Below, in pieces: positions 3,877 through 61,969 of a DNA stretch of 61,969 nt. Position 1 is the stretch's first letter. Every line of letters starts with the position of its first letter. Under the pieces are notes generated by a model. That model did not search any database. It was not told the origin of the DNA and worked only from the letters and a program-made list of their open reading frames with translations. The stretch comes from an uncultured Patescibacteria group bacterium (GTDB taxonomy: Bacteria > Patescibacteriota > JACMRA01), in the NCBI GenBank assembly GCA_938041505.1, contig CALITC010000013.1, positions 1-61,969 of the forward strand, read 5' to 3'. A program made the position numbers and the translations under genes.

Positions 3877-3898
3877 AAAAATACCGACATTATCGGTA
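3875..3898 (-). terminator. Rho-independent terminator of the S74 gene
   Basis: The minus strand reads TACCGA, a 5-nt loop, TCGGTA, then a run of seven T. It follows the stop at 3923 and separates the S74 transcript from the Calx-beta operon. Confidence 0.7.
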
Positions 3899-3922: not shown

Positions 3923-4588
3923 TCAAGAATCAAGACGAGCTATAAATGAATTAATTTGTTTTTGTTGTTCCTTTATGGCCTCAACCAATACTGGAATAAC
4001 ACCGATATAATTAACCTTTTTTATACCATCTTGACCTTCACTCACCAACTCTGGAAGAATTTGTTCAATCTCTTGGGCTATGACGCCATACTGGGTGTTT
4101 CGATCTTCATCAGACTTTAAATTATAGGTCTTACCTTGTATATTCTGAATTTTTGCAAGTGAATCAGCGGAATCAAGAGGTTTAATATTGGTTTTAAGCC
4201 GCTCATCTGATGTCAGAACAGACCCACCTGCTGAAACTGTTCCTGTGACATCTACGTTACCATCTACCATTAACTTCTCAGTTATATCATTGTATCCAGA
4301 AGACCCACCAAATTTGGTATTTCCTGAAAAGTAGTTTTTCGATGACCTACCACTTGCACTACCTTTTTCCAGAACACCCCATACTTCATCTGGAGTAGTT
4401 CCGTCAGCAAAAACATTAACAAAATCCATGTATAGATGAAAAAACTCATTAATCTTACCGCTACGAACCTCCCCATCTGTGCGAATATTCATAAGTCTTG
4501 GGGTAATGGCTTCACCTGATACATCTTTCATATTTTGACCATGTCCTGATCGAACGTACAGGTTAGAAACATCAAACATCACCTGCAA
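3923..4588 (-). CDS. C-terminal part of tail-spike-like protein: peptidase S74 intramolecular chaperone
   Basis: The C-terminal ~100 residues match the endosialidase-type chaperone (peptidase_S74). SDERLKTNI carries the Ser/Lys pair of the self-cleaving site, followed by YGVIAQEIEQ-LPELV, a YIGVIPVLVEAIKEQ helix and a terminal coiled coil. In phage tail spikes this domain drives trimerisation and then cuts itself off. The frame overlaps the upstream 378-residue ORF in a different phase. Removing one copy of the 7-bp repeat at 4567-4580 would join both into one ~590-residue protein (...FAGDVSNLYVR...). The only start here is a TTG with no ribosome-binding site, so this half is probably not an independent gene. 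A terminator follows the stop. Confidence 0.8.
   Translation of the reverse strand: MQVMFDVSNLYVRSGHGQNMKDVSGEAITPRLMNIRTDGEVRSGKINEFFHLYMDFVNVFADGTTPDEVWGVLEKGSASGRSSKNYFSGNTKFGGSSGYNDITEKLMVDGNVDVTGTVSAGGSVLTSDERLKTNIKPLDSADSLAKIQNIQGKTYNLKSDEDRNTQYGVIAQEIEQILPELVSEGQDGIKKVNYIGVIPVLVEAIKEQQKQINSFIARLDS
4567..4580 (-). repeat. Perfect 7-bp tandem duplication (GATGTTT x2) that breaks the S74 gene
   Basis: The minus strand reads GATGTTTGATGTTT. With one copy the frame continues as GAT-GTT-TCT-AAC. With two copies it hits TGA at 4572-4574. Confidence 0.85.
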
Positions 4589-5708
4589 AAGAACCGTTCC
4601 AATTCGACATTGGTGCAGTTCCCGGTGGAAAAAATTCTTGTGCGTTACGGCGATAGAAGTCCAAACCAGTTCCAGCTAGGTGCTCGTACTTATCACTATC
4701 TACAGAAGTTCTGATAGCATAGTCTTTACGATCATAAGTCAAAAACTGACTAGCACTATTACCATCAAAAGTTTTATAGGACTGGCTAACAACAACGTCA
4801 TTAACAGAATCTGCGGCCGTCAAATCTTGCACTCTCCTTTCAATTTGACCCATTCTAGTGATCCCATATTGATCTGTCGAGAGTTGAACCCTGTTTTCAA
4901 TATCAATATACTTAATACTAGGTTTAAAAACCTTAAAACTATTTGAACCTGTAGGTGCCCTATAGACATCTAAAAGATCTAGTTCAGTATTAAAAGCGGT
5001 AAAAAACTGCATTCTATATTCAGTTACAGAAATTTGCTCTGTAATTAAACCGGATGAGTTTGGTACTCTAAACCTGTCTCCAATATTGAAAAAATTATCC
5101 GGCGCAGGGTCACCATTAGTATTACTAACCAGCACAATTTTATTTGCAATAGTGTTTCCGAATGTTTCTATACGAACATCTCCATCTGGATCGATATCAT
5201 CGTACACCTCTTCTGTTATCCTAACTCTAACTTTGTTTGGTCCTATAACCCTCTCAACAAAATAGTACTTAAACCCACCATTAAAACTTATCTCAATTAC
5301 ATCATGCTCTGCCACTTGATCTGCCAAATTCCCTCCTCCACTCAAAGAAAGATAAGTATATCTTTGAAGGTCGTTTGTATTGTCAGCCAAAAGCTCGACA
5401 TCACCTGTACCATCAACAATAAACGGGTTAAGGTTTGGATCCACTTCTTGTACAACCTCAATTTGCTGCATTACCACCCATTTTAACTCTGTTGAATACC
5501 ATCTTTCGAATAATCCTGTGGCTGTATTGAATCCTGTATAATTATCATCATTTCCGTGATCGAGGCTTCCATTTGCCCATGGGCGTTGATCTTCGCCAAA
5601 CCAAAGATTGAAACCACCTTTAACAGGGTCATTAAGTTGTGAAAGGTGCTGATTTAATGTGGTCCCCCAATCCACCGCTCCCAACCCTGGCACTGCTTTT
5701 CCTGGCAT
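4572..5708 (-). CDS. N-terminal part of tail-spike-like surface protein (378 residues before frameshift)
   Basis: It begins with PGLGAVDWGTTLNQHLSQLNDP, the kind of short N-terminal motif seen in phage-like tail or appendage proteins. It continues through beta-rich sequence (DGTGDVELLADN, YYFVERVIG, VRVRITEEV) and ends at GSFAGDV-stop. There is no signal peptide. Its natural continuation, ending in the S74 chaperone domain, lies in the next frame immediately downstream, so the pair is best read as one gene interrupted by a 7-bp duplication. Its own promoter lies upstream at 5742-5770. The function is probably a trimeric fibre or spike, which is inferred from the S74 domain rather than from this part. 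Confidence 0.75.
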   Translation of the reverse strand: MPGKAVPGLGAVDWGTTLNQHLSQLNDPVKGGFNLWFGEDQRPWANGSLDHGNDDNYTGFNTATGLFERWYSTELKWVVMQQIEVVQEVDPNLNPFIVDGTGDVELLADNTNDLQRYTYLSLSGGGNLADQVAEHDVIEISFNGGFKYYFVERVIGPNKVRVRITEEVYDDIDPDGDVRIETFGNTIANKIVLVSNTNGDPAPDNFFNIGDRFRVPNSSGLITEQISVTEYRMQFFTAFNTELDLLDVYRAPTGSNSFKVFKPSIKYIDIENRVQLSTDQYGITRMGQIERRVQDLTAADSVNDVVVSQSYKTFDGNSASQFLTYDRKDYAIRTSVDSDKYEHLAGTGLDFYRRNAQEFFPPGTAPMSNWNGSFAGDV

Positions 5709-6831: not shown

Positions 6832-7494
6832 TTAGGTTATAGGTGTATACGTATATTCTGGCAAATCAAACCAATGGAAATCAGCAGCTGGCCAAAAACG
6901 CCATTTCTCTTGCCCCAAGATTGTAAACTCTGGGAAACTCCCCTTTCCAGGTGCTCTAGAATCAGTGCTATTGATACGATTGTCGCCCATCAAAAAATAC
7001 TCACCCTCTGGGACCTGATACCTTTCAAAAACATAATTAGTGCTATCCATGCGAGCTTTCACAGATTCAGCGATATAATCTTCGTTTAGGACAGCTCCGT
7101 TAGGAAAAGTATCATTGTATATAATAACACTCGAACCAATTATCTCTATCTCTTCACCTGGAAGTGCAATAATTCGCTTGAGTAAGAACCTAACCCCAGG
7201 CTGAAATCTCGTAAAGTAATTAGCCTCTTTAGCAATAAGCTGATCATCATAAGCTGCTACGACCTGCCCTCTATTAAAATTCTTATTAATTTGATCAACC
7301 AAAAGTAATTGATTGGTAAAATAATTAGGCTCCATACTAGCGCCAACCACACTCACCTGCTGCAGCCAAAAAACACGCGCAATGAATATAAAAATAAACA
7401 GCGCCCATAAAAGACCCCACACAATCGCCCATAAATTAACCTCTTTACGAACTTTCGTGGGACGCCTGGTATATACTAAATTGCTGGTACTCAT
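6832..7494 (-). CDS. lepB: Signal peptidase I
   Basis: A type I (S26) signal peptidase that cleaves signal peptides from exported proteins. A single N-terminal transmembrane helix spans residues ~22-45. The catalytic Ser53 sits in GASMEP, the general base Lys106 in LLKRIIALPGE, and the GDNR-x-NS-x-DSR box is intact. The frame extends to a TTG at 7530, but that TTG is part of a TTGACA box whose -10 ends 7 nt before the ATG at 7494, so I start here (220 residues). The abundant secreted giants in this window are its likely substrates. Confidence 0.93.
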   Translation of the reverse strand: MSTSNLVYTRRPTKVRKEVNLWAIVWGLLWALFIFIFIARVFWLQQVSVVGASMEPNYFTNQLLLVDQINKNFNRGQVVAAYDDQLIAKEANYFTRFQPGVRFLLKRIIALPGEEIEIIGSSVIIYNDTFPNGAVLNEDYIAESVKARMDSTNYVFERYQVPEGEYFLMGDNRINSTDSRAPGKGSFPEFTILGQEKWRFWPAADFHWFDLPEYTYTPIT

Positions 7495-7501
7495 GAAATT
7501 T

Positions 7502-7530
7502 AAAGTACTATTTGGTCCAATTAATGTCAA
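7502..7530 (-). promoter_or_regulatory. lepB promoter (leaderless)
   Basis: TTGACA, 17 bp, TACTTT, then 7 nt to the ATG at 7494. It lies between manB and lepB, so lepB-exonuclease can be transcribed independently of manB. Confidence 0.6.
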
Positions 7531-7552
7531 GCTATATATCCTATTACAGGAG

Positions 7553-8953
7553 TTAGCTAGATCGAATAATCTTCAGCAATTCTTCCATTTTCTGATCAAC
7601 AACATCCTTACCCATAGTTTCAATCCTGAGTCTCATTACTGGCTCTGTATTACTTTTTCGAAGACCAAATCTCCATGAGTCTAGCTGCATATGTAAACCA
7701 TCCTCTTCATTACTAACACCATCAGGATATGCCTTTTTAAGATTAGACAGTATGGTATCAAAATCAGACTCAATCTTCATGTTAGTTTCTTCACTATTAA
7801 AGTAGTGCCCCCTCCATTCAGATAGCAAACCACTGAGTGACATCTCTTCATTTTGCAATAATGATATCAAATATAACAAAACCAAAATACCACTATCCAT
7901 ATAACCAAACTCTTTGAAATAATAATGACCTGATATTTCACTACCTAACAAAGACTCACTTTCAAGCATGGCTTTCTTGATATATGTATGACCTTGCTTA
8001 GTATAGACTACATCACCCCCAAGAGACTTCATAACGTCTGCAACAAGTGATGAGGATGAGAATGCAGCTACGGTTTTTTTATTATCAACTTGCGGATAAA
8101 GTTTTTGAGCTAGTAAGCCAAAGATCATGTCAGGATTAACAAGCTCACCTTTCTCATCGACAATAAAAGCTCTGTCTCCATCCCCATCAAAAGCCATACC
8201 AAGGTCTGCACCTTCTTCGAGCACCTTTCGCTGGAGATCTACCATATTCTTTGCGTAGGCCGGATTCGCTGGATGATTAGGAAAATTACCATCTCTCTTC
8301 CAATAAAGGTCAACGAATTCAACAGATTCTATTCGATTCGCAATATGATGTTCCATAATATGACCACCCATTCCATTACCAGCGTCCACGACAATCTTCA
8401 TTTTTTTACCCTTTGTGAAATAACTACCTAACTTTTCGCTGTATGCAACTGCAAACTTTTCTGCCTCTTCAGCCTTGATACACTCATCTATAGAAACTTT
8501 CATGGAAGATTCTACAAACTCCATATTGTTCTCAAACAAATCCATAACTCCATCCCGAATTGCTGCAAGTCCTGTGTCTATACCAATCATCTGCGGAACT
8601 TTCTTGACAAGCTTAAGGCCATTATCACCTTTTGGATTATGACTAGCTGTGATCATGGCACCGCAAGTATTGTATAGCTGACTAGCAAAATACATCATAT
8701 CTGTAGATCCTTGGCCAAGAGCTTTGACAGTTCCTCCAGCTGCTATTACACCTTGGATAAATCCCTCATATAGCTCTGGACTACTCAACCTACAATCATG
8801 CAATACAACAACTTCTAACGGTAATCCGTCGACCTCTAAAACCTTCTTAATCAAATTGTAACCTACACCAAATGCCACCTTTCCATTAATAATCGGATAG
8901 GTTCCACGTACGTCGTAAGCTTTGAACAACTGTTGTATTTCTTGTATATTCAT
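7553..8953 (-). CDS. manB: Phosphomannomutase/phosphoglucomutase
   Basis: A member of the alpha-D-phosphohexomutase family, interconverting hexose 1- and 6-phosphates for sugar-nucleotide and envelope glycan synthesis. The phosphoserine loop is TASHNPKGDNGLK (Ser104), the metal loop is DGDGDR, the sugar-binding loop is SEISGHYYF, and the C-terminal phosphate-binding loop is RKSNTEPVMRLR. At 466 residues the length is normal. The longer ORF starts at a TTG 6 nt upstream, but the -10 box at 8962-8967 points to the ATG at 8953. Gene order manB-lepB-exonuclease suggests an envelope-related transcription unit. Substrate preference (mannose or glucose) cannot be told from sequence. Confidence 0.92.
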   Translation of the reverse strand: MNIQEIQQLFKAYDVRGTYPIINGKVAFGVGYNLIKKVLEVDGLPLEVVVLHDCRLSSPELYEGFIQGVIAAGGTVKALGQGSTDMMYFASQLYNTCGAMITASHNPKGDNGLKLVKKVPQMIGIDTGLAAIRDGVMDLFENNMEFVESSMKVSIDECIKAEEAEKFAVAYSEKLGSYFTKGKKMKIVVDAGNGMGGHIMEHHIANRIESVEFVDLYWKRDGNFPNHPANPAYAKNMVDLQRKVLEEGADLGMAFDGDGDRAFIVDEKGELVNPDMIFGLLAQKLYPQVDNKKTVAAFSSSSLVADVMKSLGGDVVYTKQGHTYIKKAMLESESLLGSEISGHYYFKEFGYMDSGILVLLYLISLLQNEEMSLSGLLSEWRGHYFNSEETNMKIESDFDTILSNLKKAYPDGVSNEEDGLHMQLDSWRFGLRKSNTEPVMRLRIETMGKDVVDQKMEELLKIIRSS

Positions 8954-8961
8954 ATACAAAA

Positions 8962-8990
8962 GTTATATATTCTAATCCAAAATTACGCAA
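8962..8990 (-). promoter_or_regulatory. manB promoter (leaderless)
   Basis: TTGCGT, 17 bp, TATAAC, then 8 nt to the ATG at 8953. Confidence 0.5.
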
Positions 8991-9151
8991 GTTGAAGTTC
9001 ACCTTAATTTTTTTATTAAAGATCTGATATATAACAGAATAAAACGACTAAACTACTTCGCATAAATCTTCAGGTTAATACCTTGACAGACTCCCTTCGA
9101 TTAAGTAAAGTTAAAACAACAAGAGCGGAAACAAGCGAATTCTAATAAACA

Positions 9152-9180
9152 TTGACAATAATTCGTTATTTGAGTTTTTA
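9152..9180 (+). promoter_or_regulatory. ftsZ promoter
   Basis: Consensus TTGACA at 9152-9157 is followed 17 bp later by TTTTTA. The predicted transcript starts about 30 nt before the first ATG of ftsZ. The 9002-9151 stretch between the two divergent promoters holds no other signal that I can see. Confidence 0.45.
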
Positions 9181-9217
9181 ATAACCAATCCACCCTTTGG
9201 AAACAACAAACCATCAT

Positions 9218-10657
9218 ATGATACCTAAAAGTATGAAGAACGACTATCCAGCTATTGGAGATTCTTACAACATGAATGTAATTAACTCCAATAAATTCTC
9301 CCCTGCTGCCAAAATTAAAGTAATTGGCGTCGGCGGAGGAGGCTGTAACGCAGTCCGACGCATGATCGAAACCGGTTTAGAAGGTATAGAATTCTGGGCC
9401 ATGAATACTGACTTGCAAGTTCTCAAGCAAATCCACGCGGATGGAATTATCCAGTTAGGAGCCAATATTACCAGAGGTCTTGGAGCAGGAATGAGCTCAG
9501 AAGTTGGACGCCAAGCCGCAGAAGAATCTCTGGCTGAGATTGAGGCTGCTTTAGCAGGAGCTGATATGGTATTTATAACCGCCGGGATGGGTGGTGGAAC
9601 TGGAACAGGAGCTGGACCTGTTGTTGCTGAAGTCGCCAAGAGAATGGGCATTCTTACAGTTGGAGTTGTTACCAAACCTTTTGAATTTGAAGGCCAAAAG
9701 CGTAAACAAATTGCTGACGAAGGAATTGAGAGAATCAAAAGCGATGCTGACGCAGTTATAATTGTACCAAACCAGAGATTACTTCAAATAATCGACAAGA
9801 GAACAAGTGTTTATGAAGCCTTCAAAATTTCAGACGATATTCTCCGTCAAGCAGTTCAAGGTATTTCCGATTTAATTAACTTCCCAGGCGAAATCAACGT
9901 TGACTTTGCCGATGTTCGAGCAATCATGAGCAACGCCGGTACAGCCCTTATGGGTATGGGGCGTGCAAGTGGAAGCAACGAAGATAGGGCCAAACAAGCA
10001 GCTTTAATGGCTATAGACTCTCCACTTCTAGAGCTGAGTATAGAAGGAGCCCACGGTGTTCTCTTCAATGTTCAAGGTGGCAAAAACCTGTCCATGTTTG
10101 AAATCGGAGAAGCAGCAGATGTTATTAATGCGCATGTGGACCCAGAAGCCAAAATAATTTTTGGTACATCGATAGATCCCAACCTACAAGATGAAATTAA
10201 AATTACTGTTGTGGCCACAGGATTCACCAAAGAAAAAGAGGATGGCACAACAGAAGAGTACGGTGGTATAAGCGAACCTTCAAGCAGACCTTCACAAAGC
10301 TATACATCCCCACAATATAGGAATGTAAACATGCCTTACACACCCCCTCGCTTCAAGCAGCATCAGGAAAGACCTACGGCTCAACAAGAAAACCCTACCC
10401 CGACACAACCTCAGCAGTACGAGCAACCTCGGCATCACGAACAACCTCAATATCCAAGACAGCAGCCTAGCCTACCAAGAGCGATGCCAGCACCGCAACA
10501 AGCACCCGCTCCACAACAACATACACCTTCTTATCAGGAAAGCATGCCTCAACGGCAACCAAAACAACCAAATCAATTCGAACAACAATCTCAACTCGAT
10601 GTTCCAGCTTTTATTAGAAAGAAGCTCAACCCAAGCGGAGAACCAAACAAAGATTAA
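9218..10657 (+). CDS. ftsZ: Cell division GTPase FtsZ
   Basis: A tubulin-like GTPase that polymerises into the division ring. The nucleotide-binding [13 protein letters not shown], the tubulin signature [10 protein letters not shown] and the T7 synergy loop NVDFADV are all intact. A roughly 130-residue Gln/Pro-rich linker follows, ending in [11 protein letters not shown], the conserved C-terminal tail that binds membrane tethers. The frame is open from a TTG at 9197. In-frame ATGs lie at 9218, 9233 and 9272; the last has GGAG 11 nt upstream and leads directly into the conserved core, so the true start is uncertain. FtsZ stands alone here, not in a mur/fts cluster, and is followed after 28 nt by an FKBP gene. 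Confidence 0.95.
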
Positions 10658-16483: not shown

Positions 16484-19400
16484 CTATTCGTCTTTATTCA
16501 CAATTTTTGGAGTAACACTCTTTCTTCTTAAACTAACTGTGTATATGGTGAATAGAGCTCCAATTCCGAGTAATAAGCCAGTCATGACCATACCTCCAGT
16601 TCTAGGTAAAGTAACACCTCCAATAGAGTTATTGCTACTATCACTATTATTATCACTATTGTTATTAGAAGCATTTGCTCTAGAAGTAGCGTTGTCAGAA
16701 GGATCTAATGGATCAGTACCATCTGCAATTTCTGTAGCATTATCGAAGCCATCTGCATCAAAATCTTCCAGATTATCATTTGTATCATTACCAGCATCGT
16801 TAGCTACAGTACCAGCACTATCTGAGTCTGCAATATTTGGATCTGTTCGAGTCTCAAATATTTCATCTGCATCGTTCAAGCCATCGCTATCTGAGTCAGC
16901 AGAGTTTGGATCAGTACCGTAGAGAAGTTCTTCAGCATTAGACAAACCATCATCGTCAGGATCGCCGTCGGCACCATTATCGTTAGTCGAATCATCTACA
17001 TCAAATCCGTGTTCGTTTTCCCAACTATCTGGCAAACCATCTCCGTCAGTATCAGTTGTATCATCTATCAAGAATGAGGTTTCACCTGTATCAATAAAGT
17101 TCCCTGATAGCGTCTGTACTGCTATATCTGAAGTATTGAGATTATTATCCGCATCGTAAGCTATTCTAATTGGGTATTCACCAGCTGCAGTATCTACAGT
17201 CGCAACATTTGTACAAGTAACTAAATCTCCAGTACCCTCAACACACGCTGTAGGAGAAGCATTAGCCATATCAATATTACCAACAGTCACAATAAATCTT
17301 GCATCAGTGGAATCTGGCAATATTATAGAAGCCGGTAAGACAAACTGACACGTAGTATCAACACCAACAAACACTGTTTGACAACTTACTAACAAATTTG
17401 GGATATCTTCGTCTTGCAAAACGGTGAATGGAATAGAGTTGATGTCGTGTGGGTCGCTTCCAGCATTGATTTCGTCAATTGTGATGTATCCATCACCATC
17501 AAAATCTTCTTCTCCATCATTTGTTCCGTTATTAGCTTCATCTGCAGTTGTGAAAGTTGAGTTAGAATCGCTTTCGTCAGGATCGGTTAGCACAATGTTC
17601 ACCTCGTCAGCATCACTTAACCCATCTCCATCAGAGTCAACACTATATGGATTAGATCCAGCAGCTTCTTCTTGGCTATTATTCAAGCCATCTCCATCAG
17701 AATCTTCGTCCCCATCTAACGTACCATCACTATTACTATCATCTTGAAACGGATTAGTGAAGGAAACATACAACTCAAAAAAGTTACTTAAGCCATCACT
17801 ATCATAATCTTCCATTCCATCATCAGTTCCATCACCTGCCTCATCAGCAGTTGTAATTACAGAATCAGAATCTGCAATATTTGGATTAGTTTGCAAAATC
17901 CTAATTTCATCTTGAGTCCTTATTGCGTCATCATCATAGTCTTCATCTCCATCGTTTTGAGTGTTTAGAGATTCATCAATCGGTGTATTTGGATTATCTG
18001 AGTTTGCATCAAATGGATCTGTACCTGTAATAGTTAATTCTTCAAAGTTTGTAAGGCCGTCATTATCAGTATCATTATTGATATCAAAGACAGTTGCATC
18101 TTCGCCAGTATCAATCTTATTTCCACCAGAAATTTGGGCGAATACATCCTGAGAACCATCTTCTGGAGTAACTGGTATACCTGTACAAGTTGCTAAGCCA
18201 GCTGTGTCAACCACACATGATCCACCAGGTGTAGCATTACCAATAGCCATCAAGAAATTAGAAGGTAAAACCTTATTGGCTGGCACATTAAATGTACAAC
18301 TAGCCGTTTGATTCGAAATTGAATCTTCACAAACCACATTCAAACCTGGGATATCTGACTCAAGAACAACCTCTGCAATATCACCTTTGATATATCTTGG
18401 TGTGACATCAGTAACATTCGAAACATTATCAAATTCATAATAATCAGCAGACGCTCCTGTAACACCGAATAAGCTATCGTTCAAAAATAGCAATCTATAC
18501 AAATCTCCATTAGTATCTATCGCGCTCTTTTCAGTAATTTTTGTAATATCACTAAGACCGTTTATCACTTCAGGAGTACAGATAGGATTTGTAGTATGAT
18601 TTGTTCCCCATCTTACAACAGTATTATCGGTTTTCAATGCGTAAGCATCACCCCCAACATTCAAAGCCTGGATACCTGTTGCTCCCGCAGTAAAAATTGG
18701 CTCACTTGCTGTGTCAACCCCTATTCCCAAGGAACAATTAGAGTTTGCACCTGCACTATAAATTGTACGGTTACCTCCATCATCTCGTAGAATGTGAGTC
18801 ATTCTGTCGTTTCTAACACTGATATCTAAAACATCAGTATACGGTAATTCAATTGGAGTCTCTACCGCACTGTCACTTGCATTAAAATTAGCGCTAAAAG
18901 CAGGATCATTTGGATCTACACCAGATGAACCAAATGCATTCCAACCCCAATAATATGCTTTTCCAGTATCAGTATCTAATGCCATATGAGAGATTTCATG
19001 ATTAGAAATTTTATCAATGGCAATACTATTTGAACTGAAATAGGTTACTTCACAAAAATGCTCACAATCCGCGACACCTCCAGGACCATTACCTAATGCT
19101 CCTTGATTATCAATTCCTGCAACCCAGACAGAACCATCATTTTTAAGGATTGAGGTTGTTCTTCCACTAGAAGACACTTGTTTTACATCACCAACCCTAG
19201 TTGTGTTACTTGCATCAGTGTATACTGGTCTTGGTGTAAAGTTAGCCTCTCTATCTCCTTGACCAAGTCCGCCCCATACATTTTCACCCCAAGATAACAG
19301 CTCATCATTTTGAGTAATACAGAAGTTGTTTACTCCACCATGCAAGAATTTACAATCGCTAAGAGCTGCTCCAACCTCTTCGTAATTGATAAGTCCAGTG

Positions 19401-20689
19401 CTTGTATTTTGAGTAAAGCCAAGTTTATAAAAATCATTTTTACCAAAAGACCATACGTTACCATTATTAGTAACTGCAAATCCGGCTGTACCTGAGTGTT
19501 CTACCTCTACTACATTTGAGAGCGAAGGGATTTGAGTATAACTTTCAGCGTTTGTTATTGTACCAAGCCCTGCATCACCAACATTATTTGTTCCAGATGT
19601 ATACACATTACCATCTTTAATTGTTAATATATTTGCAGCCTGACCACCAATCTTGGAAATTCCTGTTGCAAGCGGTCCTCTACAAGGGTATGTTAGAGAT
19701 GACCCAATTGTGTTACCTCCGTTGTGTGTCTGACAATCTGTAAGAGGATTAGATGAATCTGTTCCTGCGGCCGCACCATTTATAGTACCCCAAACCCACA
19801 TATTACCATCTTTAATAACACGTGGTCCAAATCTGTTCTGATTAGCCATCGACTCGAATCCGGTCATATCTGATCCACCAGTATTTTTTAGCGTTGCTGG
19901 TGTACTCACAAATGGATCAGTAATGTCTTGACCTAATTGACCATTGAGGTTACCACCCCAGGTATACAATTTGGAATCTCCAGTACGAGCTAAAGCACCT
20001 CCATCCATACCTGAAATCTCCACCGCGTTATTAATTCCTGATACTAATACAGGAGTAATAGAATCATTAGTAGAGCCGTTACCCAACTTACCCTCAGATC
20101 CACTTCCCCATGCGTAAACCTCTCCAGCTTTGAGAGCATACATTCCAGATCCGGCACTTGAAATAGCGATATCTGAAATACCACTCAGCGCTTGAATTCT
20201 AACAGGGGTTTGATAGATACTCGTATCAGGGGTAATACCTAGTTGACCAAAGTCATTTCTTCCCCAAGCCCATACTGTTCCATCATTTTTCAGAGCAATC
20301 GCTGAGTTACCATTTTGAGCGGATAATGCCTTTGTAACACCTGTAATGCCATTCACCTGAACTGGAGATGAAAAACCTTCCAAGCTTACAGCAGTTCCCA
20401 TAATTCCGTTTGAGTTAGACCCACTCGCCCATAGCGTGCCATCACTTTTTGTAAATAAAGTATTATGCCTTCCTGCCGAGACAGAGCTAACACCTCCACC
20501 AGTGATATTAGCTAATGTCGGTGAAGGAATAATATCTGTAGTCCCCAGACCCTGATATACAGGATTTATCCTTGTCGCCCAGACATCAGTTGCAGAATTC
20601 ACTGTCAACGATCCTAAAGACGAAGAAATTAAAAATAAAAAAACACTAAAAATCGTCCACACCTTCTTACCTAAAACAAAAGTAGTCAT
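16484..20689 (-). CDS. Giant secreted RCC1-propeller / thrombospondin-type-3 protein with LPRTG anchor (1,401 residues)
   Basis: The N-terminal signal peptide is hydrophobic at residues ~10-30. Residues ~50-760 carry RCC1-type repeats (SAGRHNTLFTKSDG, LKNDGTVWAWGRNDFGQLG, WGSGSEGKLGNG), which form a beta-propeller. Two Cys-containing Ig-like modules (around VVCEDSISNQTASCTF and VSCQTVFVGVDTTCQF) alternate with thrombospondin type 3 calcium repeats (DSDGDGLSDADE, DTDGDGLPDSWE). The C-terminus has LPRTG (1361-1365), a transmembrane helix and RRK, a sortase sorting signal. The protein is likely displayed on the surface. It is a paralogue of the 1,680-residue protein beyond the tRNA genes. Confidence 0.9.
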   Translation of the reverse strand: MTTFVLGKKVWTIFSVFLFLISSSLGSLTVNSATDVWATRINPVYQGLGTTDIIPSPTLANITGGGVSSVSAGRHNTLFTKSDGTLWASGSNSNGIMGTAVSLEGFSSPVQVNGITGVTKALSAQNGNSAIALKNDGTVWAWGRNDFGQLGITPDTSIYQTPVRIQALSGISDIAISSAGSGMYALKAGEVYAWGSGSEGKLGNGSTNDSITPVLVSGINNAVEISGMDGGALARTGDSKLYTWGGNLNGQLGQDITDPFVSTPATLKNTGGSDMTGFESMANQNRFGPRVIKDGNMWVWGTINGAAAGTDSSNPLTDCQTHNGGNTIGSSLTYPCRGPLATGISKIGGQAANILTIKDGNVYTSGTNNVGDAGLGTITNAESYTQIPSLSNVVEVEHSGTAGFAVTNNGNVWSFGKNDFYKLGFTQNTSTGLINYEEVGAALSDCKFLHGGVNNFCITQNDELLSWGENVWGGLGQGDREANFTPRPVYTDASNTTRVGDVKQVSSSGRTTSILKNDGSVWVAGIDNQGALGNGPGGVADCEHFCEVTYFSSNSIAIDKISNHEISHMALDTDTGKAYYWGWNAFGSSGVDPNDPAFSANFNASDSAVETPIELPYTDVLDISVRNDRMTHILRDDGGNRTIYSAGANSNCSLGIGVDTASEPIFTAGATGIQALNVGGDAYALKTDNTVVRWGTNHTTNPICTPEVINGLSDITKITEKSAIDTNGDLYRLLFLNDSLFGVTGASADYYEFDNVSNVTDVTPRYIKGDIAEVVLESDIPGLNVVCEDSISNQTASCTFNVPANKVLPSNFLMAIGNATPGGSCVVDTAGLATCTGIPVTPEDGSQDVFAQISGGNKIDTGEDATVFDINNDTDNDGLTNFEELTITGTDPFDANSDNPNTPIDESLNTQNDGDEDYDDDAIRTQDEIRILQTNPNIADSDSVITTADEAGDGTDDGMEDYDSDGLSNFFELYVSFTNPFQDDSNSDGTLDGDEDSDGDGLNNSQEEAAGSNPYSVDSDGDGLSDADEVNIVLTDPDESDSNSTFTTADEANNGTNDGEEDFDGDGYITIDEINAGSDPHDINSIPFTVLQDEDIPNLLVSCQTVFVGVDTTCQFVLPASIILPDSTDARFIVTVGNIDMANASPTACVEGTGDLVTCTNVATVDTAAGEYPIRIAYDADNNLNTSDIAVQTLSGNFIDTGETSFLIDDTTDTDGDGLPDSWENEHGFDVDDSTNDNGADGDPDDDGLSNAEELLYGTDPNSADSDSDGLNDADEIFETRTDPNIADSDSAGTVANDAGNDTNDNLEDFDADGFDNATEIADGTDPLDPSDNATSRANASNNNSDNNSDSSNNSIGGVTLPRTGGMVMTGLLLGIGALFTIYTVSLRRKSVTPKIVNKDE

Positions 20690-21285: not shown

Positions 21286-24200
21286 CTACTTATTATCCTT
21301 AAAAACAATCATTTTTCTTCTAGAACTCACTAACAAACCAATTACTCCAACAGCCACAAAACTAGAACCAAGTAGCGATAAAATCTGCAAACCACCTGTC
21401 CGATTAGTATTATTCAAATTTGGTACCACATCTTCAACACCCCCCACACTCTCGTCATCTACGTTATCTGGATTTTGAGCAACAGGATCACCAGTAGGAC
21501 CTGTAAGCGGATTTTCAGAGGCGTTGAACGAACTCGTTTCAGAGAAAATTTCCTGTCTGTTAGTATAACCATCTCCATCAAAATCCTCATCTCCGTCATT
21601 AATTCCATTATCTCTCTCATCCACATTTTCTGTCCTTGAACTGTCTGAGTCGCCATTTGTAGGGTCAGTTAGCAATATCTCCGATTCATCTTTATCATTT
21701 ACCCCATCTCCGTCAGTATCAGCTCGTAAAGGATTAGTTCCAAAGTTAAATTCTTGAATGTTTGTAAAACCGTCGTCATCTGGATCGCCTTCACTCCCGT
21801 CGAATCCTTCTGCGTTACGCTCATCCAAATCAAAGCTAATCTCCCATGAGTCAGGTAAACCATCTCCATCTGAATCTGTAGCAAGAATCGCCGATATCCT
21901 AACACGCTCACCGGTATTTACACTTTGTTGTGAATTAATCTGACCATAAACAAACTGGAGCCCTTCAAAACTACCAGTTGGCACATTTGTACAATTGACA
22001 GTAACTCCTGAAGTCACACAAGTACCTCCTGGGATTGCGTTAGAAACCCCTAATTTAAACCCAGATGGCAAAAACTTATTCTGAGGCAAAGTAAAAGTAC
22101 AATCTGTACTTGAATTAATCAATCCTTCCTGGCAATACACTGTTAGTTCCTGAATATCCAATGAATCAAAAGTACTTCCAGGTGTTGCATTTACATTAAA
22201 AGGGTCAGTACCGGCAGCTATTTCGTCTCGATTATTAAAACCGTCTCCATCGAAGTCTTCCGCACCATCATTTACTCCATTCCCAGCATTATTTTCTGTC
22301 GTCCTAAGAGAGTTACTATCTCCGTTAGAGGGATCTGTGCTTAAGATAAGTATTTCGTCTCCATCACTTACCCCATCGCCATCAGTATCTGCAAGCCCAG
22401 GATTTGTGCCATTATTATATTCTTGTATGTTAGTTAAGCCGTCACCATCTGCATCACCACCAGCACCATCATTACCCACACCGCTATTAGGATTAAGTCC
22501 GAATTGAGATTCCCACGAATCAGGTAATCCATCATTATCTCCATCAGATTGCACAGACCCATTGATACGAACTCTTTCACCAGTATTAATTTTGGGATTA
22601 CTTCCTATTTGTACAAAGATAGTCTGTAAACTGCTTACATTTCCTGAAGGAACGGCATTACATTCAATAGAGCTGCCATTAATTGCACACACTGGAGAAT
22701 TCGAAGCAGAGCCTATCGTGACAGACAAAGTGCTGGTAACCTTTTTCCCTGCTGGTATGGTTGATCTACACGTTATTTGAGAATTAACCAAACCCTCACC
22801 ACAAAACCACACCATCTGTGGAATATCTATTGAACTGATCTCAGTCGATGGAGTACTAACCTGATCAAAAGGATTGGAGTTTCCTTGTATTTCTTCACCA
22901 TTATTAAAACCGTCTCCATCAAAATCTTCATTGTTGTCGCTAACGGAGTTGTTAGCCTCATTGGCTATAGTTCTTGCAGAATCTGAGTCAGCGTTGAGTG
23001 GGTCAGTTTTAAAATCACCAACCTCTAAGCCATCTCCTAAACCATCTCCGTCACTATCTAAGGTATTTGGATTTGTGCCATAAAAATATTCCTCTAGATG
23101 TGTTAAGTTATCCCCATCAGGATCCCCAAGCGGGCCGCTATTTCCTATAGCGGAATTTGGATTAAGCCCATATTGTATCTCCCACACATCTGGCAATCCA
23201 TCACCATCACTATCTTGCAAACCAACATCCAAGTCTTCCCCAGTGTCAATAGCACCTCCTACATTAATTTGAGCCAGAATATCTTGGGAGCCAACTAACG
23301 AGCCAACAGAAACATTGAGACAAGTTACAACTCTTGTTGTATTATTTAGCGCACAAGAACCGCCAAAAGCAGAATCACCCCCTGTTTTAAGCAAAAAATT
23401 TGCAGGTAATAGCTTATCGACAGGCAGATTAAAAACACAACTTGTTGAAGAATTACTTGAAGCTGAGCTACAATTAAATACCAGCTCAGGAATATCTGTA
23501 GCAGAGAGCACAGTTGCGGGTCTAGAATTAGAGTCAAATGGGTTACTACCATTATTAATTTCGTCAGAATTCGTAAAACCGTCTCCATCGAAATCTTCTG
23601 CACCATCGCTAATATTATTACCCGCTTCATTGATTACAGTCAGTCCAGAATCAGAGTCAGTTACAAGGGGATCGGTTAATAAGATATTGACTTCCACACC
23701 ATCTGATACAAAATCAAAGTCTGTATCTCCCTGCTGAGGATCAGTAAGATTGATGTACTCATTAATATTATTAAGTAAATCACCATCTGGATCTCCAGAT
23801 ACGTCAGATGGATCATTGGGGTCTAAGGAATATGTATTCTCCCAAGAGTCAGGCATACCATCTCCATCACTATCAAGTGCGTCAATCTGAACATCCTCAC
23901 CAGAATCCACAGCTGCAGAACCATCGATAACAACAAAGATGTCCTGAATTCCTGGAACAGAGCCAGTTGACACATTCTCGCAAAAGGCAATATTTCCAGC
24001 CTCAACACAACCACTGTTTACTACACCATTACCAATTTGCAATGCAAAACTCTCAGGAAGCCTTTCCCCTGGTGGAATATCAAACCTACACGTTGTAGAA
24101 GAATCTGTGACAGAAGTCTGACAAAAGACATTCAAACCAAATATATTAGTAATTGGTTCTAATAGATCACCTTTGACATAAGCAGTTGTGCCTCCAAGAG

Positions 24201-26328
24201 CCAAAGGAAGCTCAGAAACTTTTTCAATATAATAATACTGCGACGGGTTACTTCTATTCCAGCTCCACAACGAGCCATCAGTCTTTAGCGCAAACGCCCT
24301 ATCGAACATGAAACCAATTGATTCAACATCTTCTATTGCCAGCAATGCTGGTGTGGGCATAGGATTTAGCTGAGAAGAACCCAAAGCCTCCTCAGAACCC
24401 CAAACATACACTTCATCAGCTGAGGTAATAACACTGTATCCTTCAAAGTTGTGGTGAGAAAAAATATTCTCAGCCCCTACTATCCCAGTAACTTGAACAA
24501 AGGTGTTTTGCAGAGTATTACCTGTAGTGCCTCCTCCAAGCTGACCAGAATAGTTATTTCCTGTAGAATAGACACTACCTAAATCATCGACATAAGCACA
24601 AGAATACTCTGCACAAGCTACTGAACGAACTCCATTTGCTGTAACTTGAGGAATTATCGGGACCCCACCATTAAGGCCAGCCGTATGGGGATTATTCCCA
24701 TACACATACAGATCTCCAACCGCATCGATAGCATAGAGATTTTGTTGCCCTGCAACAATAGAAACAATATTATTAAGGCCCGATATCAGAACAGGCGAGT
24801 TACTGCCAGCTGGAGTATCCCCCCACTCATATACGGTACCTCCACTACTCAACGCAAAGGAACCGTAGTTGCTTCCAACAGCTTGAGTTATATTAGCCAA
24901 ACCGGGCACAGCAGTTGGATTAAGAGAATTGGCATTAGTTCCCAAGCCAAGCTGACCAGCAAAACCTAGACCACAACTAAGTAGCGACCCATCATTTTTT
25001 ACAATCAAGGTGTGAGTTTTACCACCACCCACACTAGTGTAATTCTGAGAATTTGCCGCTAAGAAATCACTTGAACCTGTAGCGGTGTTGGCGTATCCAA
25101 TATTATGAAAATGGTTGAATCCCCAACCAGAAAGCGTGCCATCTGATCTAGATACTTGAACAAAATCTCCTTTTACCGCAGCTAATTCGATAATGCCTGG
25201 GGTAAAAGTAATGACTGTTGGAGCAATTGACTCGCTCCAAGAGCTGTTTCCTGACTGTCCATGCAAATTACTTCCCCAAATCACAACATCACCTGCGTCA
25301 TCTACAACCAGACCGTTTGCACGACCAACCCCCAAACGCTCACGAGTGATTCCAGTATAAGTCGACCCTCCTGGCAAACCAACGACCTGCGCTGGATTCT
25401 CTGGATTAGAATTCCTAGATAAACCTTCTACTCTTCCCCATTCCCAAAGCGTGTCATCTGTTCTACTAACCAAGACATGCTCTCTTCCTGCGCGAATATG
25501 CTCAACATTCGTCAATGAAGCAATCAGAATAGGACTATTTGTGTCAGTGAAATTCCCTTGCCCTAATTGACCAAGACCACCAAAGCCCCACGAAAAAACA
25601 CCTCCACTGGCATCAAGAGCAACTGAGAAACCATCCCCTCCAGACACTTCAACAATGTTTGATAACCCTGTAGAAACCGGGAAATTCTTAGCAGTGTTGG
25701 TGCTATCACCAAGTTGGCCATAAAAGTTATTACCTGCAGCCAAGACAGTATTGTCGGACCTTAAAAAAAGCGTATGGTCTTCCCCAGGAGCGATATCGAT
25801 AACGTTAGATGCAAATACCTGCACCGGTGTTGCTTGATCAAGATTATTGTTTATCCCCAGTTGTCCATGTGTATTTTCACCCCAACCCCAAACGCTTCCA
25901 TTTGCAGTATCCAGAGCAAAAGCAAAATTATTCCCAGCATACACCTTATCAATACCCGACAGCGAAGGAATAAGTGTAGAGTCTTCTTGAGCGGTAAACG
26001 TACCAATTCCAAGCTGGCCATGATCATTCTGACCTGCCGCAAGTACAGTTCCATCAGCCCGAGCGACAAGAGAAAATCCTTCACCTCCCGCCACATTAGC
26101 TGTCGTACTCAACGACGGATACGGTCTTGGAGTAGTCTCTACAGAGATTAAATTATTACACATCGTCCCATAGTCATTATATCCGTATTGCATCCACAAA
26201 TTCTGCGCCGCAGAAGCATCTTCGTTATCAACCCTTCCTACTCCAACAAAAAATACAACACCCACCACTACAGTGATAAGTGAAACGAGCCCTAAGAAAA
26301 ATGCTCTTTTTTGTGCGTTGAGTATCAT
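21286..26328 (-). CDS. Giant secreted RCC1-propeller / thrombospondin-type-3 protein (1,680 residues)
   Basis: The signal peptide is hydrophobic at about residues 10-30. A YGYNDYGTMC stretch and a long series of RCC1 repeats follow to ~residue 720 (ARADGTVLAAGQNDHGQLG, WGWGENTHGQLG, SWGFGGLGQLG). After that come five cycles of an Ig-like Cys module (FCQTSVTDSSTTCRFDIP and relatives), each followed by TSP3 calcium repeats (DSDGDGMPDSWE, DTDGDGVSDGDE). The C-terminus shows NRTGG (1642-1646), a helix and RRK, a degenerate form of the LPRTG anchor of its paralogue. It is probably exposed at the cell surface. Confidence 0.9.
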   Translation of the reverse strand: MILNAQKRAFFLGLVSLITVVVGVVFFVGVGRVDNEDASAAQNLWMQYGYNDYGTMCNNLISVETTPRPYPSLSTTANVAGGEGFSLVARADGTVLAAGQNDHGQLGIGTFTAQEDSTLIPSLSGIDKVYAGNNFAFALDTANGSVWGWGENTHGQLGINNNLDQATPVQVFASNVIDIAPGEDHTLFLRSDNTVLAAGNNFYGQLGDSTNTAKNFPVSTGLSNIVEVSGGDGFSVALDASGGVFSWGFGGLGQLGQGNFTDTNSPILIASLTNVEHIRAGREHVLVSRTDDTLWEWGRVEGLSRNSNPENPAQVVGLPGGSTYTGITRERLGVGRANGLVVDDAGDVVIWGSNLHGQSGNSSWSESIAPTVITFTPGIIELAAVKGDFVQVSRSDGTLSGWGFNHFHNIGYANTATGSSDFLAANSQNYTSVGGGKTHTLIVKNDGSLLSCGLGFAGQLGLGTNANSLNPTAVPGLANITQAVGSNYGSFALSSGGTVYEWGDTPAGSNSPVLISGLNNIVSIVAGQQNLYAIDAVGDLYVYGNNPHTAGLNGGVPIIPQVTANGVRSVACAEYSCAYVDDLGSVYSTGNNYSGQLGGGTTGNTLQNTFVQVTGIVGAENIFSHHNFEGYSVITSADEVYVWGSEEALGSSQLNPMPTPALLAIEDVESIGFMFDRAFALKTDGSLWSWNRSNPSQYYYIEKVSELPLALGGTTAYVKGDLLEPITNIFGLNVFCQTSVTDSSTTCRFDIPPGERLPESFALQIGNGVVNSGCVEAGNIAFCENVSTGSVPGIQDIFVVIDGSAAVDSGEDVQIDALDSDGDGMPDSWENTYSLDPNDPSDVSGDPDGDLLNNINEYINLTDPQQGDTDFDFVSDGVEVNILLTDPLVTDSDSGLTVINEAGNNISDGAEDFDGDGFTNSDEINNGSNPFDSNSRPATVLSATDIPELVFNCSSASSNSSTSCVFNLPVDKLLPANFLLKTGGDSAFGGSCALNNTTRVVTCLNVSVGSLVGSQDILAQINVGGAIDTGEDLDVGLQDSDGDGLPDVWEIQYGLNPNSAIGNSGPLGDPDGDNLTHLEEYFYGTNPNTLDSDGDGLGDGLEVGDFKTDPLNADSDSARTIANEANNSVSDNNEDFDGDGFNNGEEIQGNSNPFDQVSTPSTEISSIDIPQMVWFCGEGLVNSQITCRSTIPAGKKVTSTLSVTIGSASNSPVCAINGSSIECNAVPSGNVSSLQTIFVQIGSNPKINTGERVRINGSVQSDGDNDGLPDSWESQFGLNPNSGVGNDGAGGDADGDGLTNIQEYNNGTNPGLADTDGDGVSDGDEILILSTDPSNGDSNSLRTTENNAGNGVNDGAEDFDGDGFNNRDEIAAGTDPFNVNATPGSTFDSLDIQELTVYCQEGLINSSTDCTFTLPQNKFLPSGFKLGVSNAIPGGTCVTSGVTVNCTNVPTGSFEGLQFVYGQINSQQSVNTGERVRISAILATDSDGDGLPDSWEISFDLDERNAEGFDGSEGDPDDDGFTNIQEFNFGTNPLRADTDGDGVNDKDESEILLTDPTNGDSDSSRTENVDERDNGINDGDEDFDGDGYTNRQEIFSETSSFNASENPLTGPTGDPVAQNPDNVDDESVGGVEDVVPNLNNTNRTGGLQILSLLGSSFVAVGVIGLLVSSRRKMIVFKDNK

Positions 26329-47207: not shown

Positions 47208-48461
47208 ATGAACAATCACAAACCAACCATTAACCGAATAGTAATCGGTGACGTAGGAAGCGGCAAAACCATAGTCGCTTTCTTGGTTGGCGTTGTCTTT
47301 CAAAAAAATTTGCAAAATTGTGAAATAGCACTCCTTGCACCTACCGAAGTCTTAGCCTATCAACATTACGAAAATTTTTTATCTTTCAAACAATCACTAC
47401 CTCAATCCGCTCAAAAACACTTTCCAGTTGCACTCTATCAAGCTGCCAACAAATATTTTATCAACGGAGAAAAATACACTAAAAAAAAGTTTGAACTGAC
47501 CTGCAACACACTTAAAGAAAACAAATTCTGGATCGGAACTCACGCCCTACTCCATAACGATCTAATACAACCTAATTTAATTTTTATAGACGAACAGCAT
47601 CGCTTTGGCGTCAAGCAGCGCAATAAATTAATTGCCACCAACCCCAAAAACCCTCACCTAATATCTTTATCAGCAACGCCAATTCCCAGAACTCTAGCCC
47701 TCACCTTATATGAGTCTCTGCATCCTCATTTTTTGGAAACTCTTGCATCAAGAAACCCGGTCAGAACCACTCAAGAAACCTTCGAAAACTTCGAACTGGG
47801 GGTAATCCCAAAAATCAAAAAACATCTCAACAACAATCGAAAGGTGTTCGTCATTTGTCCAAGTATAGAAGAAAATGAAGATGATGACTTATGGTCTACC
47901 ACTAAGACCTCTAGGCGACTCAAGAAAATATTTGGGGATACAATCCTCACTGTCCATGGTAAAAATAAAGAAAAAAAAGGTATTCTTAAAAAATTCAAAG
48001 AAAGTACTGACAAAAATATTTTAGTAGCGACAACGGTGGTAGAGGTAGGTGTTGACGTTCCAGAAGCCAGCCTCATGATAATTCTTAACAGTGAACGCTT
48101 CGGACTCTCCGCCCTACACCAGATGCGCGGCCGTGTTGGGAGGAATAATTACGAAGACAATGACTGTGTTCTGGTAACGTATGAAAAGTTCAAGTATATC
48201 AAGCGCCTCCAATACCTCAAGCAAATAAATTCAGGGTTCGAACTCGCTGAAAAAGATTTGGAATTACGTGGGGGTGGAGATATGCTCGGCAGAATACAAA
48301 GTGGATTCGACACTGATATAGAACAAATCCTAACCCTTGGAGAAGAAGCCTACAGCAAAATAAAAAAGGTCCTAGACCAAGTAGACCTTCATAACCTGGA
48401 TAAATTACCAAGGCTCAAAAAGTACTTAGACAAAGAATCCAAATCCATTCACCACGAATAG
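47208..48461 (+). CDS. RecG-like DNA helicase lacking the wedge domain
   Basis: A superfamily 2 helicase. Motif I is GDVGSGKTIVA, motif II DEQHRFG, motif III SLSATPIPRTLALT, followed by VVEVGVDVPEASLM, LHQMRGRVGRN and the RecG-type FELAEKDLELRGGGDMLG. These place it with RecG. It begins only ~11 residues before Walker A, so the N-terminal OB wedge domain that binds the branched fork, and the region preceding motif I, are absent (417 residues against ~680-800). No remnant is visible upstream, where the bactofilin-like gene ends 2 nt before. Confidence 0.88.
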   Translation: MNNHKPTINRIVIGDVGSGKTIVAFLVGVVFQKNLQNCEIALLAPTEVLAYQHYENFLSFKQSLPQSAQKHFPVALYQAANKYFINGEKYTKKKFELTCNTLKENKFWIGTHALLHNDLIQPNLIFIDEQHRFGVKQRNKLIATNPKNPHLISLSATPIPRTLALTLYESLHPHFLETLASRNPVRTTQETFENFELGVIPKIKKHLNNNRKVFVICPSIEENEDDDLWSTTKTSRRLKKIFGDTILTVHGKNKEKKGILKKFKESTDKNILVATTVVEVGVDVPEASLMIILNSERFGLSALHQMRGRVGRNNYEDNDCVLVTYEKFKYIKRLQYLKQINSGFELAEKDLELRGGGDMLGRIQSGFDTDIEQILTLGEEAYSKIKKVLDQVDLHNLDKLPRLKKYLDKESKSIHHE

Positions 48462-60013: not shown

Positions 60014-60599
60014 AAAATATTTTCCAGATAACCTTTTAAGTGTCGAGCAGTAGTATATTTGCATCCTAAGATACCGACTCTTTTAGCAGAAGCCAATTTT
60101 GAATCTGAATCATCAATATACAATACCTCGCTTGGACTAACAGATAATTCGTTCAAGACATTTTCAAAGAACTTTGGATCTTTCTTATGATAGCCAACAT
60201 CACAGGAGAAAAACTACCATCCAAAAAATCTCTCAATCCCTTCTCGTTCCATATATATTCTGCTCGATACTTTTCTTGATCACTTACCAAATATATTTTT
60301 TTTGAATTTTTGCGAAGTGCCTTACAAATACTTACAATTTCAGGATCGATATACGAATCGGCTGCAAACCAGTACTCTAACAACTCTTCAACACTACCCT
60401 TCCATTCCCAATCATCTATAACCTTCTCCAACTCAATTTTCAGGTCATACTCACCTAAATTAATATCATCTTTAGTATTCTCAAAAAAGGGTAAGAGTTT
60501 CTTAATATCGACCCCCTGCTCTCTCGAATATATTTCGCTAAAATACTCTCCAGGACTGATAACCCCGTCAAAATCTATAAGTATAATTTGTTGATTCAT
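60010..60599 (-). pseudogene. HAD-family hydrolase broken by a 1-nt frameshift
   Basis: The first frame (60599-60153) has motif I LIDFDGV, a cap region and motif II YLVSDQE. Near 60209-60213 it leaves the family pattern. The next frame resumes exactly: FFSCDVGYHKKDPKFFENVL with the motif III Lys, then LYIDDSDSKLASAKRVGI with motif IV, ending at TAA 60010-60012. Adding one T to the T5 run (minus strand) restores GSFFSCDVGY. It is either a recent pseudogene or a sequencing indel. I start at ATG 60599 because a TTGACA/TACTTT promoter ends 6 nt before it. The ATG at 60620 lies inside the spacer. Confidence 0.85.
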
Positions 60600-60605
60600 A
60601 AGAGC

Positions 60606-60634
60606 AAAGTAAGTTGCCATGTGAAGAATGTCAA
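60606..60634 (-). promoter_or_regulatory. Promoter of the HAD gene (leaderless)
   Basis: TTGACA, 17 bp, TACTTT, then 6 nt to the ATG at 60599. Confidence 0.6.
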
Positions 60635-60685: not shown

Positions 60686-61837
60686 ATGAAACCCGGCAAA
60701 AACTACTATCTTGTAACTTTCCAAGATGTTTTCAAATACATTACTCAATTCAAAACCTTCTGGCCACTTTTTATTCTCAGATCTGGATATGTTATAGCTA
60801 ATATATTCCCGACAATTTTGATCGGTGAAGTTGTAAATACTCTAGAGAAAGATATCAATAACACTCAGAGACTGATCATGTTAGTGGGGATTTATATGGC
60901 CATCATAGTTTGCGGGCCAATGATAGAGGTGTGGACAGCCTATTGGAATTGGTACACCGGATCCAAAGTAATGCGTCAGATCTCCAACGCAACCACTACT
61001 AAGCTCAAACACGCCGGAGTTAGCTTCTGGCAAAAACACTCCAAAGGGCAAACCCATCAGATAATGGAAAGTTACGGAGAGTCGGTAGGAACACTTGTCG
61101 CTAGAATCCCCCACACCTATCTTCGGCACGTCGGCGCAATACTTGGTATCATCTTGGCCAGCAGCTTCATCTCCCCTTTAATTCTTGTGGTGTATACAGT
61201 TAATATTGCCATCTACATTTGGAACCTTGTTTACCAAACCAAAAAAGAAAAAGTCTTTGGATTAGAAGAGCAAAAAGAATATGAGAATCTAAGCAAAGTA
61301 AAATTCCAATATCTCAATAATTACAACACAATCTTCTATCTCAATCTATTTAGCAGAGAAGAACAAATAATTGCAGAAGGAAACCAAAGAGCCTTTGATG
61401 CAAATACCAAAAGCCTAAGGGTAACAATGTGGAAATGGTTTATTAATAATTTCTTACACAATATAACCACCTTTAGTATTTTTGCATATTGCATCTGGCT
61501 AGTAAGAGAAGGAGGTATCAATACAGGTACGATGCTCACGGCAGTATTATTTAGCACACAAGCAAGTTCTATCTTGGGTACCCTTGTTCAAGAAGCAAGT
61601 AACTTGACTGCACATGTAACCAAAATACAAAGATACCACGAAACATTTGATAACATAGAAAAAACAACTTCCAAAAAAGAGCTCATTACAACGTTTGATA
61701 ACATAAGCATAAATAATGTTGATATAACGAGTAAACTTCCCCAAGCTTACGCTCGGGGCATTAGCCTTTTTCAAACAGTTCCACTGTTTGGGCTGAATCT
61801 TCTTCCCCTTACTTTTGTATATATCTTTCTTCGATAG
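60686..61837 (+). CDS. ABC exporter transmembrane half with disrupted ATPase half
   Basis: The first ~330 residues form a six-helix type I exporter domain (FWPLFILRSGYVIANIFPTILIGEVV, SNATTTKLKHAGVSFWQKHSKGQ, then the coupling helices and QEASNLTAHVTKIQRYHE). The start of the nucleotide-binding domain is seen as TTFDNISINNVDI. From about 61735 the sequence no longer resembles an ABC ATPase: no Walker A follows, and the frame ends after a hydrophobic tail of ~35 residues encoded over a 20-nt hairpin. It is either truncated by an insertion or joined to foreign sequence at the window edge. The start at 60686 follows the promoter spacing. Confidence 0.8.
   Translation: MKPGKNYYLVTFQDVFKYITQFKTFWPLFILRSGYVIANIFPTILIGEVVNTLEKDINNTQRLIMLVGIYMAIIVCGPMIEVWTAYWNWYTGSKVMRQISNATTTKLKHAGVSFWQKHSKGQTHQIMESYGESVGTLVARIPHTYLRHVGAILGIILASSFISPLILVVYTVNIAIYIWNLVYQTKKEKVFGLEEQKEYENLSKVKFQYLNNYNTIFYLNLFSREEQIIAEGNQRAFDANTKSLRVTMWKWFINNFLHNITTFSIFAYCIWLVREGGINTGTMLTAVLFSTQASSILGTLVQEASNLTAHVTKIQRYHETFDNIEKTTSKKELITTFDNISINNVDITSKLPQAYARGISLFQTVPLFGLNLLPLTFVYIFLR
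61739..61758 (+). repeat. GC-rich hairpin, copy 1
   Basis: CCCCAAGC, loop TTAC, GCTCGGGG: an 8-bp stem with one mismatch, at the point where the ABC reading frame loses similarity to its family. Confidence 0.7.
61772..61790 (+). repeat. Second hairpin next to copy 1
   Basis: CAAACAG, a 5-nt loop, CTGTTTG: a perfect 7-bp stem 13 nt after the GC-rich hairpin. Confidence 0.6.
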
Positions 61838-61838
61838 T

Positions 61839-61969
61839 GTGAAGACAAAACTATATGGTAATCACAATGATATACACAGTGGCTTAATCGATAGTACTGA
61901 TGTTGCGGCATATCAAAGATATACCACAACAGGAAGATTCAACCAACACTACATCCCCGAGCTTACGCT
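61839..61969 (+). CDS. Partial ORF of unknown function at the right edge
   Basis: This frame is open from 61797 to the window end, with a possible GTG start at 61839. It encodes GNHNDIHSGLIDSTDVAAYQ, RYTTTGRF and NQHYIPELT. The composition looks like protein-coding sequence, but no family is recognised, and the second hairpin copy falls in its last codons. It may belong to the element that interrupts the ABC gene. Confidence 0.25.
   Translation, partial: MKTKLYGNHNDIHSGLIDSTDVAAYQRYTTTGRFNQHYIPELT
61955..61969 (+). repeat. GC-rich hairpin, copy 2 (cut by the window edge)
   Basis: CCCCGAGC-TTAC-GCT repeats copy 1 in the same orientation 216 bp later, with the mismatch corrected. The 3' arm lies outside the window. 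Confidence 0.6.

Follow-up and report, generated by a model that had tools for sequence, protein, structure and literature searches.

Tail spikes and fibres of the K1F endosialidase type (PF13884) end in an S74 domain that carries a Ser-X4-Lys pair and follows a fibrous stalk, and in known cases the S74 chaperone is needed for trimerisation or folding. The Ser-Lys pair performs self-cleavage both in endosialidases and in the eukaryotic protein MYRF (PMC3742443). A second kind of described system is the SSR contingency locus, of which the H. influenzae tracts are an example, with an out-of-frame repeat unit inside a surface-type coding sequence. For such repeats, a pentamer in two copies is classed as 'mutable' (1e-7 to 1e-5 per division) and one in three or more copies as hypermutable (1e-5 to 1e-2; PMC4235727, Table 1), and a survey of H. 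influenzae set its threshold for heptamers at three units (PMC2651432). The locus described here invites comparison with both. We conclude that it is probably a single tail-fibre-like gene inactivated by a chance 7-bp tandem duplication that is recent or still segregating, an instance of ordinary turnover in a redundant family.

The window (the whole stretch of DNA analysed, 61,969 nucleotides) is contig C13 of a 1.12-Mb draft assembly (26 contigs, 68.8% complete), labelled G000, which is the only genome of its genus in a bacterial family of six (G000-G005). The neighbours of the locus, named from their sequences, are an exonuclease-domain gene, a signal peptidase, a gene of the phosphomannomutase type, and ftsZ; none of them is a phage structural gene, and in this respect the locus differs from a prophage tail gene. 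Elsewhere in the window, two adjacent genes on the minus strand (16484-20689 and 21286-26328) encode giant proteins of 1401 and 1680 aa. In both, RCC1-like repeats precede calcium-binding-type DxDxDG repeats, and an LPRTGG-type anchor signal closes the first. A RecG-like helicase (47208-48461) starts at its first motor motif, GDVGSGKT, with the N-terminal wedge domain seemingly missing and an unrelated gene upstream. Within 61738-61969, the end of an ABC transporter gene is interrupted by the short inverted repeat CCCCAAGCTTACGCTCGGGG, and the contig ends with a second copy of the inverted-repeat half, CCCCGAGCTTACGCT, possibly the end of a mobile element.

The locus consists of two overlapping open reading frames on the minus strand. 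ORF1 (4572-5708, 378 aa), the 5' part, comprises a middle region and, in its first approximately 80 residues (5460-5708), an N-terminal segment that aligns with the N-termini of other proteins from the same family and is matched in profile searches; we call this segment the WG module. ORF1 has no Pfam match, no relatives of it were found in GTDB contigs, IMG/VR, or phage records, and its structure model has a mean pLDDT of 42.6. ORF2 (3923-4588, 221 aa), the 3' part, combines a tail-fibre stalk with a C-terminal Peptidase_S74 (ICA) domain at residues 127-182 (4043-4210; E=6.1e-19, 68.5 bits against a curated Pfam cut-off of 22). Its S-X4-K pair, Ser127 and Lys132 in the motif SDERLK, is conserved in alignment A4. 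Searched against PHROG, ORF2 matches 50 families at E values up to 1, with tail fibres predominating among the best 25, and the matches reach into the interior of tail-fibre-type profiles (phrog_30158, for example, from residue 16). The best match in a PDB fold search with the S74 model is the MyRF ICA structure 7dc3, while residues 1-135 fall below pLDDT 50 in the monomer model. An intrinsic-terminator-like hairpin, TACCGATAATGTCGGTA (3882-3898, minus strand), follows just behind ORF2 and is itself followed by TTTTTTT. These results bear out a preliminary description of the locus as a tail-spike-type gene whose S74 domain, SDERLK included, is intact.

The two frames meet at a perfect tandem pair of the heptamer GATGTTT at 4567-4580 (a 15-bp repeat run, 4567-4581), which reads GATGTTTGATGTTT on the minus strand (wider context, GCAGGTGATGTTTGATGTTTCTAACC) and lies at the edge of the stretch open for both ORFs. 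The site occurs once in the 1.12-Mb assembly, and its flank pattern was not found in IMG/VR contigs. ORF1 extends past the first copy to a TGA stop (4572-4574), its translation ending in FAGDV; ORF2, in the +1 frame relative to ORF1, reads LQVMFDVSNLYVR... and has no stop up to 4675. Both frames are open together nowhere but in 4572-4675, which confines the frame break to these positions. Independently, a codon-usage model, for which 165 long ORFs of the G000 genome served as training data, has its likeliest switch point at 4575, within the duplication. Breakpoints upstream of about 4612 score more than 5 log units lower, and those beyond the stop more than 20 lower, although positions between about 4572 and 4608 are not strongly separable. 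From the start of ORF1 to the stop of ORF2 is 1786 bp, which agrees arithmetically with one gene of approximately 590 codons, as the preliminary description had proposed together with the exact heptamer pair at the junction and the +1 shift, both of which we also find.

Tandem heptamers as such are at chance level: the window contains 5 pairs, against 4.8 +/- 2.1 expected from third-order Markov sequence, and it is the position of this one on a frame break that stands out. (Tandem hexamer pairs across the window number 44 against 17.6 expected, as codon-level repeats would give, with no such excess for 5-, 7-, or 8-mers.) We counted pairs located at a handover from one long frame to another in 448 kb of the G000 genome (20 stretches). 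Only one of the 32 heptamer pairs, that at 4567-4580, meets this description, against about 0.05 expected from random positions; the coincidence exceeds chance and is mildly significant, but the test was prompted by this locus, which is among those counted, and so carries modest weight. Other short duplications show no excess on frame breaks in the same 448 kb, with 3 pairs of 4 bases (two at one junction; 3.8 expected) and none of 5 bases (0.55 expected). Together, the coincidence and the codon model make it likely that the 7-bp duplication caused the frame break.

An error of assembly or sequencing, or a minor allele captured in the consensus of a living population that mostly carries one copy, would give the same picture. 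The assembly is a draft in 26 contigs, and a second frame break lies in the same window, in a HAD-type hydrolase gene (60153-60620, minus strand) that is broken at about 60200, where, by a run of T, the reading of its C-terminal part (CDVGYHKKDPKFFENVLNEL...VLYIDDSD) passes into another frame. However, assembly words and reads are usually longer than a 15-bp repeat, and base-calling errors do not typically take the form of a 7-bp duplication, so we regard an artefact as improbable. A quite different way of keeping the two-copy allele functional would be programmed +1 frameshifting at GTT-TGA, as in RF2 (prfB), yielding a full-length protein with a repeated Asp-Val. The +1 frame of ORF2, the TGA stop after an NNT codon, and an AGGT shortly upstream all have the right form, but re-pairing from GTT to TTT involves a first-position mismatch, unlike the CTT to TTT re-pairing in prfB, and no relative has the same feature. 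The AGGT would predate the duplication and so is not a selected feature. We give this possibility very little credence.

Relatives support the reading of ORF1 and ORF2 as parts of one gene. The genome G001 has a single intact ORF of 599 aa (L083:306-2105), close to the combined length of ORF1 and ORF2, that runs from a WG module through to S74 and whose residues 254-597, from stalk to S74, show a continuous match to a tail-fibre profile. G003 encodes four other long WG proteins in single ORFs, G002 encodes one, which has a tail collar domain, G005 encodes many, and G000 itself encodes one on contig C6 (479 aa). Most viral S74 relatives likewise have hundreds of codons upstream of the equivalent of the ORF2 start (median 582). 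The S74 domain and the fibre share one frame in G001 and stand in two frames at our locus, which is thus a broken, non-working member of the S74 fibres. In the comparison with related genomes that the preliminary description had suggested, G001 shows the same arrangement as one ORF, but the collections searched contain no second genome of the G000 genus, so that an unbroken form of the locus itself was not observed. Alternatively, the two frames could be translated into two proteins, ORF1 alone and a free S74 protein made by termination-reinitiation at the ATG inside ATGTTTGA. Possible ORF2 starts (TTG, GTG, and ATG at 4588, 4582, and 4579) overlap the ORF1 stop, and free S74 proteins of about 230 aa occur in three viral contigs (L028 and L030 among them), so that such a protein is possible in general. 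Against this, no well-spaced ribosome-binding site precedes any of these starts, ORF2 begins inside the stalk, in the part of low predicted confidence, and the intact G001 relative is one ORF; separate translation is accordingly very unlikely. The simplest reading of the sequences is that ORF1 and ORF2 are one gene, broken.

Taken as one gene, the locus would originally have encoded a chromosomal protein of WG module, middle region, stalk, and a predicted self-cleaving C-terminal chaperone, matured by S74. The 7-bp tandem duplication would have arisen most simply by replication slippage, and translation would now end at the TGA to give a product without the S74 chaperone; because in known cases trimerisation or folding depends on such a chaperone, the gene is expected to be off. 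The duplication is probably either recent or still segregating in the population. The two halves and the Ser-Lys pair of S74 have stayed intact, which makes a recent break probable, as had been argued from the intact domain. Over roughly 600 codons there is no additional nonsense mutation or frameshift, which would be consistent too with a switch that is maintained or with translation of the parts. Loss of one heptamer copy by slippage could restore the frame, presumably at a low rate and without selection. The earlier suggestion of reversibility thus holds for a rare undoing of the change, but probably not for frequent gain and loss, as two copies are below the hypermutable range.

A stronger form of this suggestion is that gain and loss of heptamer copies flips a surface appendage on and off often enough to act as a phase-variable switch, as at contingency loci. 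A 7-bp unit is not divisible by 3, the gene concerned is of the receptor-binding type, the remainder of the gene is intact, and a paralogue in the family member G005 is itself frameshifted at L013 9538-9543 (G005:C96, within 7083-9794), where TCCATCCA could be a 4-bp duplication or a 1-bp insertion. Two copies, however, are under the hypermutable number, heptamer pairs are at their chance frequency, and short duplications have no excess on frame breaks over the 448 kb. In addition, two sister WG copies of G005 are broken by nonsense mutations, one, adjacent to the frameshifted paralogue, by an in-frame TAG (L013, from 7083, near 7100) and the other by a TAA (G005:C119), which speaks against switching because slippage cannot switch nonsense mutations. 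An evolved or frequent on/off switch, the proposal of the preliminary description, is therefore unlikely. Inactivation by a chance duplication, seen as ordinary turnover of a redundant, modular multigene family, probably accounts for the locus, and decay of this kind also accounts for the breaks in sister genes and for that in the HAD-type gene.

The family itself is defined by the WG module. In alignment A1 the invariant positions include P7, W14, G15, and L18; the alignment is too variable for contig scans. At E<=1e-4, among 380 genomes of the phylum (6 from the family and 374 others), the WG profile matches 5 of the 6 family genomes and none of the 374 others, with 13 matches in G005 alone. 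The WG loci of G000-G005 are L010, L011, L012, L014, L083, and L106-L116, and their genes stand singly or in small groups amid housekeeping genes. The C-termini of the proteins vary, including S74, tail collar, a weak pectate-lyase-like match, and repeats of the form YFGGG...IDGI.FS.ET. No Baseplate_J gene was found in the six family genomes, and none of 16 WG proteins checked, ORF1 included, has a hydrophobic N-terminal segment, while the segment of a control protein was recovered. Among viral sequences, a WG match in L151 proved to be a short terminal motif in an unrelated protein and was rejected, and contigs L152-L158 match a G005 protein only at residues 62-125, most of which lie behind the module. 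A search of the literature library for tail-fibre-like proteins of Patescibacteria returned no relevant paper, although this does not establish that the proteins are new.

Those Patescibacteria that have been cultivated live as obligate episymbionts, and little is known of how their hosts are recognised and bound (PMC12206443). We suggest, tentatively, that a single Patescibacteria family may possess an expanding tail-fibre-like repertoire of its own, in which an apparently family-restricted N-terminal module is joined to exchangeable C-termini (S74, tail collar, pectate-lyase-like, and repeat-containing), baseplate genes and signal peptides are absent, and members, perhaps serving in attachment to host cells, are turned over or switched by frame breaks. 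If this is true, host binding would have a concrete candidate in a lineage-specific modular tail-fibre-like set, and the breaking and restoring of copies could bear on which hosts are bound. The break described here is in itself ordinary, a frame-breaking short duplication in a redundant family, and the gene family matters more.

Set against known systems, the locus has in common with SSR contingency loci a repeat unit that is out of frame within a surface-type coding sequence, and differs from them in having only two copies, below the hypermutable number, at a chance frequency of such pairs. With MYRF (PDB 7dc3), ORF2 shares the S74 fold and a sequence match, whereas the N-terminal part and function are unrelated. 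The G001 protein (L083:306-2105) resembles the locus in its WG module, long middle, and S74, and differs in being one ORF, with a middle region that is not confidently alignable. The likeness to K1F-type S74 tail spikes and fibres lies in the C-terminal S74 domain, its Ser-X4-Lys pair, and the fibrous stalk that precedes it; in contrast to those fibres, the locus is chromosomal and lies among housekeeping genes, carries at its N-terminus a module that matches nothing in Pfam or PHROG, and has been split by a duplication.
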